Part shown: one piece after another, positions 3,215 to 62,018 of the stretch
Layout of the letters: each line of letters opens with the position of its first letter
Numbering within the stretch: position 1 is the first letter of the stretch
Assembly (NCBI RefSeq): GCF_007991635.1
Contig: NZ_BJYS01000006.1
Location: 62,001-126,000 of the forward strand
Reading direction: 5' to 3'
From: Adhaeribacter aerolatus
GTDB taxonomy: Bacteria; Bacteroidota; Bacteroidia; Cytophagales; Hymenobacteraceae
Length of the DNA stretch: 64,000 nt
Notes under the pieces: model-generated
Told to the model about the DNA's origin: nothing
The model's database searches: none
Seen by the model: the letters and a program-made list of their open reading frames with translations, nothing else
Made by a program: the position numbers and the translations under genes

Positions 3215-3751
3215 ATGCAAAATTATTTCGAGTTTTACGGCATTCCGGAGAGCTTTTTGCCCGACGAAAAACTGATTAAACAAAAATATTACGAACTGAG
3301 CCGCCAGTTCCACCCGGATTTTCACGCGAACGCAACCACCGAAAAGCAAAGCGAAACCCTGGCCCTTTCCACGCTGAACACCAACGCTTACCGCACCCTC
3401 AGCCACCCCGATGCCCGCATGAAATATATGCTGGAGCAGCATGGGCTATTGGAAGAAGGCAAAAACAACGAACTGCCCGCCGACTTCCTGATGGAAATGA
3501 TGGAAATAAACGAGCAACTAATGGAGCTGGAGTTTGACTTTGACGAAGCCGCCTTTAAAAAAGTAAGCCGGGAAGCTACCGGCCTGGCCGCTACCCTCGA
3601 TGCCGATATATTACCCACGCTGCAGCAATACCCTATGCTCGAAGGTTTTACGCGCGACGAAGCCCTGCAACAGGTAAAAACTTACTATTTAAAGAAAAAA
3701 TACTTGTTGCGAATTCAGGAAAGTTTATCTAAGTTTGCATCCCGATCCTGA
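3215..3751 (+). CDS. hscB: Fe-S cluster assembly co-chaperone HscB
   Basis: A 178-residue J-domain protein. Residues 1-75 form the J domain with the HPD tripeptide at 33-35 (QFHPDFH), which stimulates the ATPase of the HscA/DnaK-type chaperone. The remainder is the C-terminal three-helix bundle that binds the IscU scaffold; MEMMEINEQLMELEFD fits the HscB C-terminal signature. The role is handing Fe-S clusters from scaffold to apo-proteins. The start ATG at 3215 is the first in frame and the length matches the family. No isc/suf partner lies beside it; the tRNA-Leu gene follows 65 bases downstream. Confidence 0.88.
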   Translation: MQNYFEFYGIPESFLPDEKLIKQKYYELSRQFHPDFHANATTEKQSETLALSTLNTNAYRTLSHPDARMKYMLEQHGLLEEGKNNELPADFLMEMMEINEQLMELEFDFDEAAFKKVSREATGLAATLDADILPTLQQYPMLEGFTRDEALQQVKTYYLKKKYLLRIQESLSKFASRS

Positions 3752-3774
3752 AAACAGAGCCTCTAATTTGGTCA

Positions 3775-3796
3775 GTTCGACCCCGGCTCTGGGTAC
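3775..3796 (+). repeat. Partial tRNA-Leu 3' end (22-base exact copy)
   Basis: These 22 bases repeat exactly the T-arm and acceptor 3' part of the intact tRNA-Leu at 3880-3901. No matching 5' half is present, since hscB occupies that space. It is either the scar of a deleted tandem tRNA copy or a left-over attachment site. CAGAGCC at 3755-3761 can also pair with GGCTCTG at 3785-3791, so the fragment may double as a hairpin behind hscB. Confidence 0.8.
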
Positions 3797-3816
3797 TGTT
3801 GGATTGGTGACTACCT

Positions 3817-3900
3817 GCCCAGATGGCGGAATCGGTAGACGCGTTGGTCTCAAACACCAATATCTTCACGGATGTGCCGGTTCGACCCCGGCTCTGGGTA
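3817..3900 (+). tRNA. tRNA-Leu, anticodon CAA
   Basis: An 84-base class II tRNA. The acceptor stem GCCCAGA pairs with TCTGGGT (one G-T pair) with discriminator A at 3900. The anticodon stem TTGGT/ACCAA encloses the loop CTCAAAC, giving anticodon CAA, which reads UUG leucine codons. A long variable arm follows, then a T arm with GTTCGA. The CCA end is not encoded. A strong rho-independent terminator follows immediately. Confidence 0.93.
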
Positions 3901-3901
3901 C

Positions 3902-3938
3902 AAAGCCTTGTAAGTTAATAACTTGCAAGGCTTTTTTT
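3902..3938 (+). terminator. Rho-independent terminator of tRNA-Leu
   Basis: Arms 3902-3916 and 3920-3934 form a 15-bp stem (one G-T pair) around a 3-base loop, and the 3' arm runs into T7. It starts two bases past the tRNA 3' end. Confidence 0.88.
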
Positions 3939-4067
3939 GTTTTCGGGATAATTTGCAGGAGCCATTTACGCAATAGTATAAAACAGCCTTACTTAAATAT
4001 TCATGCCATTCAGTTGGTTGGTATTGTAGAGTAGAATATATTAACTAATAAAAGACAGATATTTAAA

Positions 4068-4098
4068 GTGTCAAGTGATAACACCTGACACGGCAAAA
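4068..4098 (+). repeat. GTGTCAGGTG-family hairpin, left copy
   Basis: GTGTCAAGTG (4068-4077) pairs with CACCTGACAC (4082-4091) with one mismatch around the loop ATAA, followed by GGCAAAA. The same sequence in inverted orientation lies at 5048-5081 after the next gene, and a third copy is at 54489-54517. The pair brackets the gene at 4116-5033. Confidence 0.85.
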
Positions 4099-4115
4099 TT
4101 ACTAAAAACTCATAT

Positions 4116-5033
4116 ATGGATTTTATACCTTACTCTTTAAGAAATAGAATACCTACGGATGTCTATACTTATGATTCATTTACAGAAAAGTTTAAAAACC
4201 AAATTATTCTAATTGCACGGGATTTCTTTTTTGATAATGTTTTTAATTATGCTGGGGAAGATTATATAATTGAACTTCATGATATGATTTGTCATGCGCA
4301 TGGCAAATTATCTCTTCCTAAAGTAGGATATAACAGTGATACAATTCTTGGTAGAATTGAAGGTTATTTTAAAGAATTAAATCAACCAGAATTAATACTT
4401 GATATAATTGAATTCTATTGCGTCGAATTTACAGAAGCTGATGAATGCACAAAAGCGCAGTTCGGGCATCTTAGCACCTCAACTTTAGTGGAGGATGCCA
4501 TTAGTAAGATAAATAGAAGATTTAAAGAAAATGGGTTAGGATATGAGGTTGTAAATAATGAAGTCATAAAGATTGATTCCCAAATATTACATTCTGAGGT
4601 TGTCAGACCGGTTCTACATTTCATACATAATGAAGTATTCAAAACAGTTGATAATGAATATAGGCTAGCATACGAACACTACCGACACGGGAACTTCCCA
4701 GATTGTTTATCAAACTGCGGCAAAGCTTTTGAATCAACGTTAAAAATTATTTGTGATAAGAAAGGCTGGGTTATTAAGCCAGGAAAAGAACAAGCTAGGC
4801 ACCTTATTTTACTGTGTTTAGAAAATGATTTAATACCAAAATACCTTCAAGAACATTATACTAGTCTAATAAAGGTATTTGAAAGCGGTGTTCCAACTAT
4901 TAGAAATAATGATGGTGGCCACGGCGCAGGAACAGAACAACGAAATATTCCTGAATACTATGCTAGCTATATGCTTCATTTAACTGGAACTTCAATAAAA
5001 TTATTTACCGATGCCTACCTGGCAAGTATTTGA
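4116..5033 (+). CDS. STM4504/CBY_0614-type protein with HEPN Abi C-terminal domain
   Basis: A 305-residue putative abortive-infection protein. The N-terminal 60 residues (SLRNRIPTDVYTYD ... FKNQI) resemble the AbiJ-like N-terminal domain of the STM4504/CBY_0614 family. The segment IDSQILHSEVVRPVLHFI (about 153-170) and YEHYRHGNFPDCLSNCGKAF (186-205) match the family core. The C-terminal domain fits Abi_C, a HEPN fold: R263-N-N-D-G-G-H269 gives the R-x5-H motif in the GVPTIRNNDGGHGAG context. HEPN proteins of this kind are usually ribonucleases that act in phage defence; the actual target is unknown. The gene is clearly AT-richer than its neighbours and is bracketed by inverted hairpin repeats next to a tRNA gene, both signs of transfer. 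No obvious antitoxin partner lies beside it. Confidence 0.78.
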   Translation: MDFIPYSLRNRIPTDVYTYDSFTEKFKNQIILIARDFFFDNVFNYAGEDYIIELHDMICHAHGKLSLPKVGYNSDTILGRIEGYFKELNQPELILDIIEFYCVEFTEADECTKAQFGHLSTSTLVEDAISKINRRFKENGLGYEVVNNEVIKIDSQILHSEVVRPVLHFIHNEVFKTVDNEYRLAYEHYRHGNFPDCLSNCGKAFESTLKIICDKKGWVIKPGKEQARHLILLCLENDLIPKYLQEHYTSLIKVFESGVPTIRNNDGGHGAGTEQRNIPEYYASYMLHLTGTSIKLFTDAYLASI

Positions 5034-5047
5034 AAAAATGAAATCGG

Positions 5048-5081
5048 TTTTGCCGCCGTGTCAGGTTTTATCACCTGACAC
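5048..5081 (-). repeat. GTGTCAGGTG-family hairpin, right (inverted) copy
   Basis: TTTTGCC at 5048-5054 followed by GTGTCAGGT (5058-5066) paired with ACCTGACAC (5073-5081). Read on the minus strand it matches the copy at 4068-4098 apart from a 3-base insertion and a few substitutions, so the HEPN gene lies in a 1014-bp unit with inverted ends. No target-site duplication could be seen. Confidence 0.85.
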
Positions 5082-5301
5082 TCACCCCAGCTGTTTGTAG
5101 TCTTTCGCAGGAGACTGCAAATTTTAGATTAAATTAGAAGTCTCCGACTTCTTGCCAGTTGAAAACTCGCCTTTAACTAGGCCCAATCTACACCCGCTGT
5201 TTTAAGTCCTGAAAAAACAGTAAAAGAGCCGAAAATAAAGCTTAGGTTATGAATTTAATATTTTCTATATTTCTTCGCAACCACCTTTAAACTAAGCCCT
5301 T

Positions 5302-6234
5302 ATGACTTCTTTAACCGGCAAAAAATATTTACTCCTGGTCGGGCTGGTACTTGCGGGTATTAGCTGTAAAAAAGATACCCTGGCGGTAAAAACCACGCCC
5401 GATTCCGACAACATCACCAATGCCCGCCCCACCGCGCCCACCCCGGCTCCAACCGTGGCCGTTACCGATTCTACTTACAACCCGGATAATACCACGCTTA
5501 CACAAGGCGGCTGGACTTTGTATTTCGAAGATAATTTTGACAACCTGGATTTAACCAAATGGAACATCTGGACCGGCGGCGCCTTTAACAATGAGTTACA
5601 ATATTACCAGCCCCAGAATGTAGCCGTGACGAAGGGTAAATTATTAATATCAGCCAGAAAAGAAACCGTAACCGGCCCTACTACCCCCTTTGATACCACA
5701 CCTAAAACCTTTCAGTACACCTCGGGCCGCCTGGAAAGTAAAAAGAATGTATCGGCCAGTACTGCTACGCCCCGGGTACGGATGATGGCCCGGCTTAAAC
5801 TGGCCAGCGGTTACGGCATGTGGCCGGCATTCTGGAGTTACGGCGACCCCTGGCCAACACAGGGCGAAATTGACATGGTGGAAGCCCGGGGGCAGGAGCC
5901 TACTAAATACCAGACCAACTACTTTTACGGCAAAACGGCTAACCGCAACGTGGTACGTAACGCTACCGGCTACCTAACCGCCGACACCGACTTAACCGCC
6001 AGCTACCATGTTTATGAACTGATTTGGGAAAAAGATAAGCTCACCTCTTACCTGGATAGCAAATTAGTGGAGGAAAAAACCAGCGGCGGCTACATACCCA
6101 GTTTGTTTGGCAAATCCGAAAGAATTACTTTAAACTTAGCAGTAGGCGGCGGCTTCTTCAATAACCTGGATCCGGCCCAAATTAAAACCGGCACTTTTTA
6201 CATCGACTGGGTAAAAGTATTTACTGCCTTATAA
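5302..6234 (+). CDS. Glycoside hydrolase family 16 lipoprotein (beta-glucanase type)
   Basis: A 310-residue secreted GH16 enzyme. The N-terminus is a lipoprotein signal with lipobox LAGIS-C22, followed by a Thr/Pro-rich linker to about residue 65. The catalytic domain starts near WTLYFEDNFDNLDLTKWNIW and contains the GH16 active-site motif E189-I-D-M-V-E194 (nucleophile, helper Asp191, acid/base), in the six-residue beta-bulge form. The WPAFWSYG segment lines the cleft. Family members hydrolyse beta-1,3 or beta-1,3-1,4 glucans such as laminarin, or galactans; the motif form fits laminarinase-like enzymes. It stands alone, not in a SusCD locus. Single-gene transcription is likely. Confidence 0.88.
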   Translation: MTSLTGKKYLLLVGLVLAGISCKKDTLAVKTTPDSDNITNARPTAPTPAPTVAVTDSTYNPDNTTLTQGGWTLYFEDNFDNLDLTKWNIWTGGAFNNELQYYQPQNVAVTKGKLLISARKETVTGPTTPFDTTPKTFQYTSGRLESKKNVSASTATPRVRMMARLKLASGYGMWPAFWSYGDPWPTQGEIDMVEARGQEPTKYQTNYFYGKTANRNVVRNATGYLTADTDLTASYHVYELIWEKDKLTSYLDSKLVEEKTSGGYIPSLFGKSERITLNLAVGGGFFNNLDPAQIKTGTFYIDWVKVFTAL

Positions 6235-32673: not shown

Positions 32674-33431
32674 CCGTTACGTTTTTAGGGACCGGTACCT
32701 CCCAGGGTGTGCCCGTTATAGGCTGTGAATGCGAAGTTTGCCGGTCTTTAGACTTCCGGGACAAACGCTTACGGGTTTCGGTGCACCTGCAACTAAACGG
32801 CAAAAGCATTATTATCGATTCGGGGCCTGATTTCCGGCAACAGGTTTTGCGGGAACGCATAAAACGGTTAGACGGTCTCCTTTTTACCCACGAGCATAAA
32901 GACCATACCTCGGGCCTCGACGATATCCGGGCCTACAACTTTCTGCAAAACTACGACATGCCCCTTTACGGAGAAGAGCGGGTGTTAAACCAAATAAAAC
33001 AAGAATTCTCCTATATTTTCTCCGGCCATAATTACCCCGGCATTCCCCGGGTAAACCTTCACCATATCTCCGAAGAACCTTTCGAAATGTTGGGCATACC
33101 GGTCATTCCCATTCGGGTAAAGCACTATAAACTGCCAGTACTGGGTTTCCGGATAAATAATTTTACATACATTACCGATGTAAATTATATCGCAGAAGCA
33201 GAACTGGAAAAAATTGCCGGCTCCGAAGTAATTGTGCTAGGAGCCTTGCGCAAAGAGCCGCACATTTCTCATTTTTCGCTTGCAGAAGCCGTAGAAATAC
33301 TAACCCGCTTAAATCCGCGCCAAGGTTACCTAACGCACATCAGCCACTTAATGGGGCTGCACCACGAGGTAGAAGCCGAACTGCCGGATTTTGTAAGTCT
33401 GGCCTACGATGGTCTGAAAATAGAATTATAA
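32670..33431 (+). CDS. MBL-fold metallo-hydrolase (PhnP-like)
   Basis: A 253-residue metallo-beta-lactamase-fold phosphodiesterase. The N-terminus VTFLGTGTSQGVPVIGCECEVC is the PhnP/pyrroloquinoline-biosynthesis-B-like opening, with two Cys that can bind a structural zinc. The metal motif THEHKDHTSGLDD (H-x-H-x-D-H) binds the catalytic pair, and later His residues lie in HLMGLHHEVE. The start is a GTG at 32670 overlapping the previous stop by 4 bases. Likely acts on cyclic or nucleotide phosphodiesters; the substrate is unknown. Confidence 0.88.
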   Translation: MTVTFLGTGTSQGVPVIGCECEVCRSLDFRDKRLRVSVHLQLNGKSIIIDSGPDFRQQVLRERIKRLDGLLFTHEHKDHTSGLDDIRAYNFLQNYDMPLYGEERVLNQIKQEFSYIFSGHNYPGIPRVNLHHISEEPFEMLGIPVIPIRVKHYKLPVLGFRINNFTYITDVNYIAEAELEKIAGSEVIVLGALRKEPHISHFSLAEAVEILTRLNPRQGYLTHISHLMGLHHEVEAELPDFVSLAYDGLKIEL

Positions 33432-39603: not shown

Positions 39604-39915
39604 AAGTAAGTGATTAGTGATTAGTAGTTAGTGATTAGTTGTTAGTTGTAGTCCGGCTGCATATAAAGAAATTGATTGCGTATCCTGCTGCTCCGCTATT
39701 TTATACCCATTATTCAGGATAGTTGGTAAAAGGATGTTCTAGTTTAGACCGAAGATTCCATTATATTTTTTATGGCTGCTGATCGCACTTTCTGTCATTC
39801 AGGAGGAACTTATGTTACAGATAGCCAAATTGTTTCCTCCTGAATGACAGAAGTGAGTTACTTAAACGGTCGTACTATAATCCTTTGCGTAAGAGCAATT
39901 GTAAAATCATTAACG
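39604..39915. other. Repeat-rich intergenic region
   Basis: No gene. It starts with tandem GTGATTAGT/TTAGTTGTTAG-like units at about 39607-39650 and contains the hairpin at 39791-39851. Confidence 0.65.
39791..39851. repeat. Perfect 18-bp inverted repeat (CTGTCATTC family hairpin)
   Basis: Arms 39791-39808 and 39834-39851 are exact reverse complements around a 25-base loop. The CTGTCATTC outer end and the following AGGA core match the repeat at 1084-1142. Confidence 0.85.
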
Positions 39916-61657: not shown

Positions 61658-62018
61658 GTATGCCGTCATCCGGGTGGTGCCCTGTGTAGAACGCGAAGAA
61701 TTCATAAACGTGGGCGTAATTCTTTATTGCGCTTCGCAAGGGTTTTTAAAAACCATCTACCATTTGCCCGAAGAACGGTTGCGGGCCCTCAACCCGGATT
61801 TAGATATAACAGAGTTGCAGGAACGGCTCCGGGCTTTTGAGCGCATTTGCGCCGGGTGGTCGCAGGGTGGAGCCATTGGGCAATTGCCGGTCGCCTCCCG
61901 TTTCCGCTGGCTTACGGCTACCCGCAGCACGGTGGTGCAAACGTCGGCGGTGCATCCAGGCCTGTGTACCGACCCAAACGAAACCCTGCAAAAACTTTAT
62001 ACCAAGCTAGTCTTGTAA
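61635..62018 (+). CDS. DUF3037 protein paired with the HipA-like kinase
   Basis: A 127-residue protein from the ATG at 61635; an upstream start in the longer frame adds six codons and is less likely. HLFEYAVIRVVPCVEREEFINVGVILYC is the DUF3037 signature, and LERLRAFERICAGW-like helices and a RFRWLTATRSTVVQTSAVHPGLC block follow. The family often stands next to short HipA-like kinases, as I recall, and may be its partner, antitoxin or substrate. Function unknown. It overlaps the kinase gene by 23 bases. Confidence 0.8.
   Translation: MPEKHLFEYAVIRVVPCVEREEFINVGVILYCASQGFLKTIYHLPEERLRALNPDLDITELQERLRAFERICAGWSQGGAIGQLPVASRFRWLTATRSTVVQTSAVHPGLCTDPNETLQKLYTKLVL

Follow-up and report, generated by a model that had tools for sequence, protein, structure and literature searches.

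Downstream of a tRNA-Leu gene of Adhaeribacter aerolatus, a single AT-rich gene of a predicted abortive-infection family stands between two inverted copies of one hairpin, which raises the question of whether the hairpins brought the gene there, mark a place where genes are exchanged, or merely happen to lie beside it. A first-pass annotation had read the arrangement as a non-autonomous, mobile defence cassette, in which a HEPN nuclease is moved by a hairpin-type element. Our analysis retained one part of this reading, namely a gene of a defence family that was apparently gained here and hairpins that are linked to a transposase, but not the other part, that the unit itself was moved by its hairpins.

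The window, that is, the whole stretch of 64,000 nucleotides that was analyzed, corresponds to positions 62001–126000 of contig C6 in the A. aerolatus genome (G000, 6.68 Mb). The two nearest relatives of G000 were a sister species (G001) and a further relative (G007, 78% complete). The longest aligned stretches at the tRNA-Leu site showed 90% identity between G000 and G001, compared with 83% between G000 and G007 and 85% between G001 and G007, and we therefore treated G000 and G001 as the closer pair. The gene labels dnaE, mnmE, tex, MFS, IS110 and glycine-rich were assigned by reading of the sequences and should be taken as presumptive. The features of the window are listed in Table 1.

Table 1. 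Coordinates of the features discussed (window positions)
Feature	Start	End	Strand	Remarks
22-nt copy of the 3' end of the tRNA-Leu gene	3775	3796	+	Identical to 3880–3901; stops 20 bases before the tRNA
tRNA-Leu (caa)	3817	3901	+	Genes downstream variable in the genus
Terminator-like hairpin and T-run after the tRNA	3902	3934	+	–12.9 kcal/mol, z –4.9
Left REP hairpin	4068	4091	–	Tag GGC (4092–4094) facing the gene; shares with G001 the base at which it joins the tRNA flank
AbiJ-NTD4 and HEPN protein, STM4504/CBY_0614 family, predicted abortive-infection RNase	4116	5033	+	305 aa
Right REP hairpin	5058	5081	+	Tag GCC (5055–5057) facing the gene
Hairpin repeat of a second family	5084	5125		Separated from the right REP by 2 bases; folding equalled by 3 of 200 shuffles
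Solo copy of the same REP family	54493	54517	+

The bracketed gene

As annotated at first pass, the open reading frame is present, carries R263-x5-H269 and encodes a member of the STM4504/CBY_0614 family, scoring 258.6 bits against the NCBIfam model NF046078 (cut-off 150). The Abi_C context that had also been named did not hold, since Pfam instead assigned AbiJ_NTD4 (PF18863, 85.5 bits with a gathering cut-off of 34, residues 6–166) and DUF7014 (120.6 bits, cut-off 27). The hallmark of HEPN RNases is a conserved R-x4-6-H in the C-terminal helical domain. When the protein was aligned with eight relatives, R263, N264, G268 and H269 were invariant in 9/9 sequences, and R263-x5-H269 fell within this spacing in every one. 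The PADLOC model PDC-S32 gave a partial match (E = 9.2e-10), with the alignment restricted to residues 14–215. The nearest relative seen shared 57% identity, and no solved structure related to the protein by sequence was found.

We thus place the gene in a defence family, and its function is predicted from that of the family. A survey of HEPN proteins (Anantharaman et al. 2013, PMC3710099) gives CBY_0614 as the example of AbiJ-NTD4 and, in the passages drawn on here, proposes that NTD sensors or brakes are fused to suicidal HEPN RNases. The product would accordingly resemble a single-protein abortive-infection system, in which an N-terminal AbiJ-NTD4 sensor or brake is fused to a C-terminal HEPN RNase; judging from the family, phage infection would free the RNase, cellular RNA would be cut and the protein would in this way defend against phage.

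The G+C content of the gene (0.327) was the lowest among the 47 mechanically called ORFs of at least 150 aa in the window (mean 0.466, SD 0.041), which bears out the earlier remark that the gene is AT-richer than its neighbours. Relatives were patchily distributed, being found in 7 of 390 genomes of the order (E ≤ 1e-30, G000 included) and in two of the eight genomes of the genus, and the gene had no match in G001 or in the incomplete G007, the sites of both of which were read. They also occurred on 333 of 72,556 plasmid records, 298 of which were rated conjugative. Among phage records there was a single match, a Zymomonas record, and a comparison of viral contigs with six degenerate patterns gave no match. 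From the base composition and the absence in relatives, we infer that the HEPN gene was gained at the tRNA-Leu site by horizontal transfer. The possibility that the gene is a recurrent cargo of such hairpins was rejected, because none of the eight relatives (0/8) was bracketed by them; for two of these (L207 and L209), the flank on one side was short, as the gene begins less than 350 bases from the start of the stretch.

The bracketing hairpins

Inverted hairpins had been reported on both sides of the gene, at 4068–4098 and 5048–5081; they are indeed present, although these spans were too long (Table 1). As inverted copies, they extend over 4067–4094 and 5055–5082 (28 nt, 93% complementary), and the gene lies 24 nt from each hairpin. 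In the form of single-stranded DNA, both folded more stably than 200 of 200 shuffles. The pattern GTGTCAGGT-N2..8-ACCTGACAC matched twice in the window (at the right hairpin and at the solo copy), against 0.00 matches expected from 100 shuffles, and the left hairpin departs from it by one base in one arm. An alignment of 21 copies gave 5'-TCTGCC-GTGTCAGGTG-TTAT(T)-CACCTGACAC, with a GCC foot tag in 17 of them; the loop is asymmetric, so that each copy has a direction. No transposase was found inside the 1014-bp unit, as noted at first pass, and a search of positions 3500–5600 against Rfam up to E 0.1 detected nothing besides the tRNA.

The same hairpins, with their tags outward, flank a gene for a RAYT (a REP-associated, HUH-type tyrosine transposase; 171 aa) in G001 and G007 at an orthologous locus. 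The NCBIfam model REP_Tyr_transpos (NF047646) has a cut-off of 80 bits, which neither the protein of G001 (65 bits, E = 6e-18) nor that of G007 (68 bits, E = 6e-19) reached; four RAYTs scored 65–73 bits against it. The RAYT of the sister species scored 15 against Y1_Tnp (PF01797, cut-off 23). The order hairpin–RAYT–hairpin was also recognized by eye in two MAGs (L094 and L111). We surveyed 85 RAYT loci, comprising 80 stretches around RAYT matches and five from the genus, and found a related hairpin pair around the RAYT at 43; by the loop rule, 27 of these pairs were oriented with tags outward, 3 with tags inward and 13 in one direction. Because the same hairpins flank a RAYT in the genus, and such pairs surround RAYTs at 43 of 85 loci, the bracketing hairpins are REPs of a RAYT. 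A cognate RAYT was not found in G000, where only two distant matches were obtained (34% identity), one of them with an in-frame TAG.

A covariance-model scan of the genus (E ≤ 0.05) yielded at least 36 REP rows: at least 9 in G000, at least 17 in G001, at least 4 in G007 and 0–2 in each of the other five genomes. These are lower bounds, as 150 candidates were scored per genome (150 of 3688 first-look candidates in G000), and G001 and G007 each include one row in which a palindrome was counted again on the reverse strand. With the nine copies found in the 6.68 Mb of G000, a tags-inward pair no more than 1.1 kb apart arose in 0.3% of random placements, a figure that is a rough guide only because REPs cluster. 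The genes around the solo copy are collinear with G001 and G007, and no REP was detected at its counterpart in either genome. A wider search for the GTGTCAGGTG hairpin gave at least 116 stretches (80 listed). On a contig of a MAG labelled Bifidobacterium breve (L108, CALPQG020000236.1), five GTGTCAGGTG hairpins stand in tandem at intervals of about 45 bases, four of them exact and the fifth nearly so; the label may be a binning error.

We also considered whether the bracket as a whole is a REPIN or an element of the RAYT type, and rejected both because the tags point inward, whereas those of REPINs and of the RAYT elements in G001 and G007 point outward; moreover, REPINs have a short spacer, whereas 966 bases separate the hairpins here. 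Inverted ends, as in a MITE, are present and point the opposite way from those of the sisters' RAYT elements, and a second copy of the hairpin–gene–hairpin unit was not found in G000.

A repeat of a second family adjoins the right REP. Other copies of it lie at G000:C30:102042 and G000:C26:57701, the latter 77 bases past the end of a RAYT-like match that contains one in-frame TAG (G000:C26:57196–57736). As this repeat adjoins both the right REP and a RAYT-like match, two RAYT/REP families may meet at the HEPN locus. The letters TCAC after the right hairpin were at one point regarded as the remnant of a RAYT stop codon; this was rejected because only two bases precede the second repeat family, whose tag supplies the rest.

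The same slot in related species

The proximity to a tRNA gene described at first pass was confirmed, with 166 bases between tRNA-Leu and the left hairpin and 214 between tRNA-Leu and the HEPN gene. In G000, hscB and tRNA-Leu are followed by a REP (tag inward), the HEPN gene, a REP (tag inward), the second-family repeat and a GH16 gene. In G001, the order is hscB, tRNA-Leu, 163 bases, REP, DUF2971 gene, REP, RAYT, REP, a further ORF and a GH16 homologue, and the two REPs bordering the DUF2971 gene are both inward-tagged. The DUF2971 gene has a G+C content of 32.1%, and its product matched the PADLOC candidate family PDC-S31 (8e-53). In G007, hscB and tRNA-Leu are likewise present, and collinearity continues across the point at which the REP starts in G000 and G001, so that the site is empty; relative to G007, the 1.5-kb block seen in G001 has been inserted. 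The RAYT element of G007 lies about 100 bases further on. Thus, as the first-pass annotation implied, the HEPN gene is not conserved at this place. Because the site reads hairpin–DUF2971–hairpin–RAYT–hairpin in G001 and is empty in G007, we conclude from the aligned sequences that one slot holds different candidate defence genes, HEPN in G000 and DUF2971 in G001.

Since G001 has a REP at the same base in front of another gene, the left REP is most simply regarded as shared by descent and older than the gene now behind it. The right REP was matched to that of G001 by position and orientation only, with no common flank past the REP.

The surroundings of tRNA-Leu also vary in the other species. 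Its neighbours are DUF4062-TPR proteins in G003 and G005, an HD-CE/HATPase protein in G002, and an integrase and a TIR protein in G006, the last of which matches PADLOC TIR-TM (2e-60); several of the genes beside tRNA-Leu in the genus therefore appear, partly on our reading, to be defence-like or mobile. A second copy of the tRNA-Leu 3' end was present in G000, G001 and G007 (with one mismatch in G007) and was not seen in the stretches covered for the remaining five genomes. The 22-nt copy in the window suggests a scar of an older integration or a tRNA duplication at the site.

A second RAYT locus upstream of tex

Upstream of tex, a RAYT of another lineage with its own REP is found in the order REP–RAYT–REP–cargo–REP in three species (G001, G002 and G003). 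In G001 the cargo consists of a 172-aa ORF together with a T5orf172/MUG113 protein, of which G003 has a homologue; in G002 it is an ORF of 261 aa that gave no Pfam match. The G+C contents of these four cargo ORFs are 29–31%. The identity of the MUG113 region between G001 and G003 (78%) is near that of its surroundings (80%), so that this cargo may have been inherited rather than swapped. The locus contains a decayed REP pair with another gene in G006; no REP-type hairpin was seen there in G000, G004 or G005, and the contig of G007 ends before it. The third REP upstream of tex matches each species' own RAYT-flanking REP (L077, L078 and L079), though G001 and G003 share cargo; it looks as if the RAYT and a REP over 1 kb distant had changed in concert.

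Among the 85 surveyed loci, a further hairpin bracketing a gene was found upstream of the RAYT at 6 and downstream at 4, to which L070 and L078, two of the 42 loci without a scored hairpin pair, can be added by eye. Accordingly, we rejected downstream cargo as a general trait of RAYTs. No bracketed gene was seen in five stretches from sister genera in the family (L241–L244 and L327), where a RAYT (partial in L327) lies beside the same gene with REPINs upstream.

REPs and changes in gene content

We compared the REPs of G000 and G001 at nine sites (G000:C1, G001:C5 and G001:C51 lay outside the comparison). At all four clearly shared sites, the homology between the sisters stopped 5–10 nt past the hairpin on the tag side (10 nt at tRNA-Leu, 5 at dnaE, 10 at the C18/C8 REPIN and 8 at mnmE), with other genes beyond. 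Since the tag belongs to the repeat, homology should extend through it; what is telling is that the homology goes no further. At the dnaE site, a third species has yet another gene beyond, and at the C18/C8 REPIN there are two overlapping alignments, the other of which starts at the adjacent REP. A fifth, doubtful site (the C15 REPIN) consists of a 40-base match of 85%, with homology ending 21 nt beyond and no hairpin recognized in G001. The remaining four sites have a REP in only one of the two species; two of them have altered neighbours (a 163-aa gene and a difference of about 22 kb) and two are unchanged.

Gene order also varies without REPs. Between window positions 33001 and 53000, only the right 8.2 kb form one block collinear with G001, with the remaining long matches spread over five further G001 contigs (68–84% identity). 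Because of this turnover, the 7 of 9 REP sites with changed neighbours represent no strong excess, and the REP counts, drawn from a small number of related genomes, lack independence. At about 39790–39867, the window contains a dispersed repeat, roughly 75 bases long, that matches G001 more than 30 times. In L083 (about 4760–5023), the G001 REPIN is apparently flanked by two stretches, each about 40 bases long and similar to one another, that correspond to a single place in G000 and likewise in G007. In L082, L086, L089, L348 and L349, the REPs after dnaE or mnmE are retained and the genes beyond differ.

We further compared the base composition of genes next to REPs using 30 of the 36 REP rows; one row each from G003 and G005, G000:C1:39, G001:C51:72117 and the two reverse-strand duplicates were left out. 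Genes with a G+C content of 34% or less made up 8/25 on the tag side, 3/18 on the untagged side and 2/115 among the other genes at the same loci (Fisher's test of the tag side against the others, 1.3e-5, with orthologues counted more than once). The first-pass annotation had stated that hairpins present genome-wide and unconnected with gene gain would speak against its proposal; the hairpins do recur in other parts of the genome, yet in this genus they are linked to AT-rich genes. At 63 usable loci among 76 REP loci outside the genus, where both sides were pooled and the statistic is therefore a different one, there was no such difference, and AT-richness beside REPs was rejected as a general property.

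Possible origins of the arrangement

We lean towards the explanation that an acquired, predicted abortive-infection gene occupies an older REP slot at a tRNA-Leu hotspot, where recombination at REP edges exchanged the cargo. A RAYT-bearing block would have been inserted at tRNA-Leu in the ancestor shared by G000 and G001; the gene occupying the slot would later have been replaced, and the RAYT would have been lost in G000, leaving orphan REPs. The exchange itself probably occurred by recombination at the edges of the REPs, either through host recombination between REP copies or through cleavage and strand transfer by the RAYT at the REP tags.

Chance placement would account for the locus if extragenic REPs had landed on either side of an accessory gene in a tRNA hotspot without any bearing on its arrival. 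In many other genomes, GTGTCAGGTG hairpins indeed lie between ordinary genes and the neighbours of REPs are not AT-rich, and bracketing hairpins are found upstream of RAYTs as often as downstream. However, few copies were found in G000 and tags-inward pairs this close are rare when nine copies are placed at random, the sister species has the same slot with a different gene, all four clearly shared REPs lie at breaks in homology, and AT-rich genes are concentrated beside REPs in the genus; we consider coincidence possible but rather unlikely. A role as transcript boundaries, with the hairpins retained for mRNA stability or termination and the gene content irrelevant, would fit the stable folding of both hairpins and the finding that genes of four kinds (HEPN, DUF2971, dnaE in three species and mnmE in two) have a REP 15–28 nt past the stop codon. 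It would leave the end of homology at the hairpin unexplained, however, and the + strand lacks a T-run after the right hairpin, so that we judge this role highly improbable.

The inward-tagged REPs might instead be the ends of a non-autonomous element, a true cassette whose hairpin–gene–hairpin unit is moved in trans by a RAYT. The tight fit of the gene between its hairpins, the fact that the bracket holds one gene in each of two species, though not the same one, and the recurrence of the layout at a second RAYT locus, where the tested cargo ORFs are all AT-rich, speak in favour of such a cassette. Nevertheless, it appears improbable, given that the polarity is opposite to that of REPIN doublets and of the RAYT elements in G001 and G007, that the eight HEPN relatives examined are not bracketed, that gene-bracketing hairpins are no commoner downstream of RAYTs than upstream and that the unit is single-copy in a genome in which a cognate RAYT was not found. 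A broader hypothesis is that RAYT loci in Adhaeribacter are gene-capture platforms: the RAYT would act on REPs by cutting and rejoining single-stranded DNA at their 5' tags; individual AT-rich genes, including several candidates for phage defence, would thereby be captured and swapped in the slot beside the RAYT (REP–RAYT–REP–cargo–REP); and REP tags in other parts of the chromosome would be breakpoints of gene exchange and of rearrangement. We regard this hypothesis as unlikely.

If the preferred explanation, cargo exchange at REP edges, is correct, such REPs may mark places where bacteria swap genes. A genus with few REPs, which lie at breaks in sister homology beside AT-rich and partly candidate defence genes, provides a tractable setting in which the role of RAYTs and REPs in gene capture and in the turnover of defence genes can be tested.

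Comparison with known systems

Genes for tRNAs are known as neighbours of defence hotspots. The site described here is similar in that the region downstream of tRNA-Leu holds differing genes across the genus, but differs in that no integrase was recognized at the G000 site, that of G006 being the sole one among the ORFs tested. With respect to the STM4504/CBY_0614 family (NF046078; PMC3710099), the HEPN protein has the same domain layout, the catalytic R-x5-H and a family score that exceeds the cut-off; no distinguishing feature of the protein was seen, and its setting alone is unusual.

In the part of the literature covered, which did not include preprints, we recognized no comparable description of defence or cargo genes linked to REPs or RAYTs. 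According to the sections of PMC3390384 considered, Pseudomonas REPs are rarely associated with atypical DNA and are markers of older, stable regions; the present genus differs from Pseudomonas in this respect, because its REPs adjoin AT-rich genes. There are reported to be E. coli strains in which a toxin–antitoxin operon replaces the REPtron locus (PMC6006769, citing Messing et al. 2012). There as here, a conflict-type gene takes over at a REP-bearing RAYT locus, but here it occupies the neighbouring slot instead of replacing the RAYT between outward-tagged REPs.

The closest published group to the RAYTs described here is subclass 2.6 of the TnpA-Y1 proteins, which in the sections of PMC6006769 used is mostly from Bacteroidetes and has atypical flanking hairpins without a GT[AG]G foot. 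This foot tetranucleotide is also absent from the REPs here, whose tag is TCTGCC-like. The motifs of the RAYTs (NHIH, WQ and YIHRNP) agree with those of the subclass (NH[LIV]H, WQ and YIH[QN]NP), except that the third differs by one residue. More generally, the excerpts consulted of work on RAYT/REP systems, including REPtrons and REPINs (PMC3116915, PMC6006769 and PMC8266576), describe hairpins with a 5' foot tag, inverted doublets and RAYTs flanked by hairpins, all of which are shared by the system described here; what sets it apart is a foot tag that is mostly GCC rather than GT[AG]G, and a foreign gene between inward-tagged REPs.
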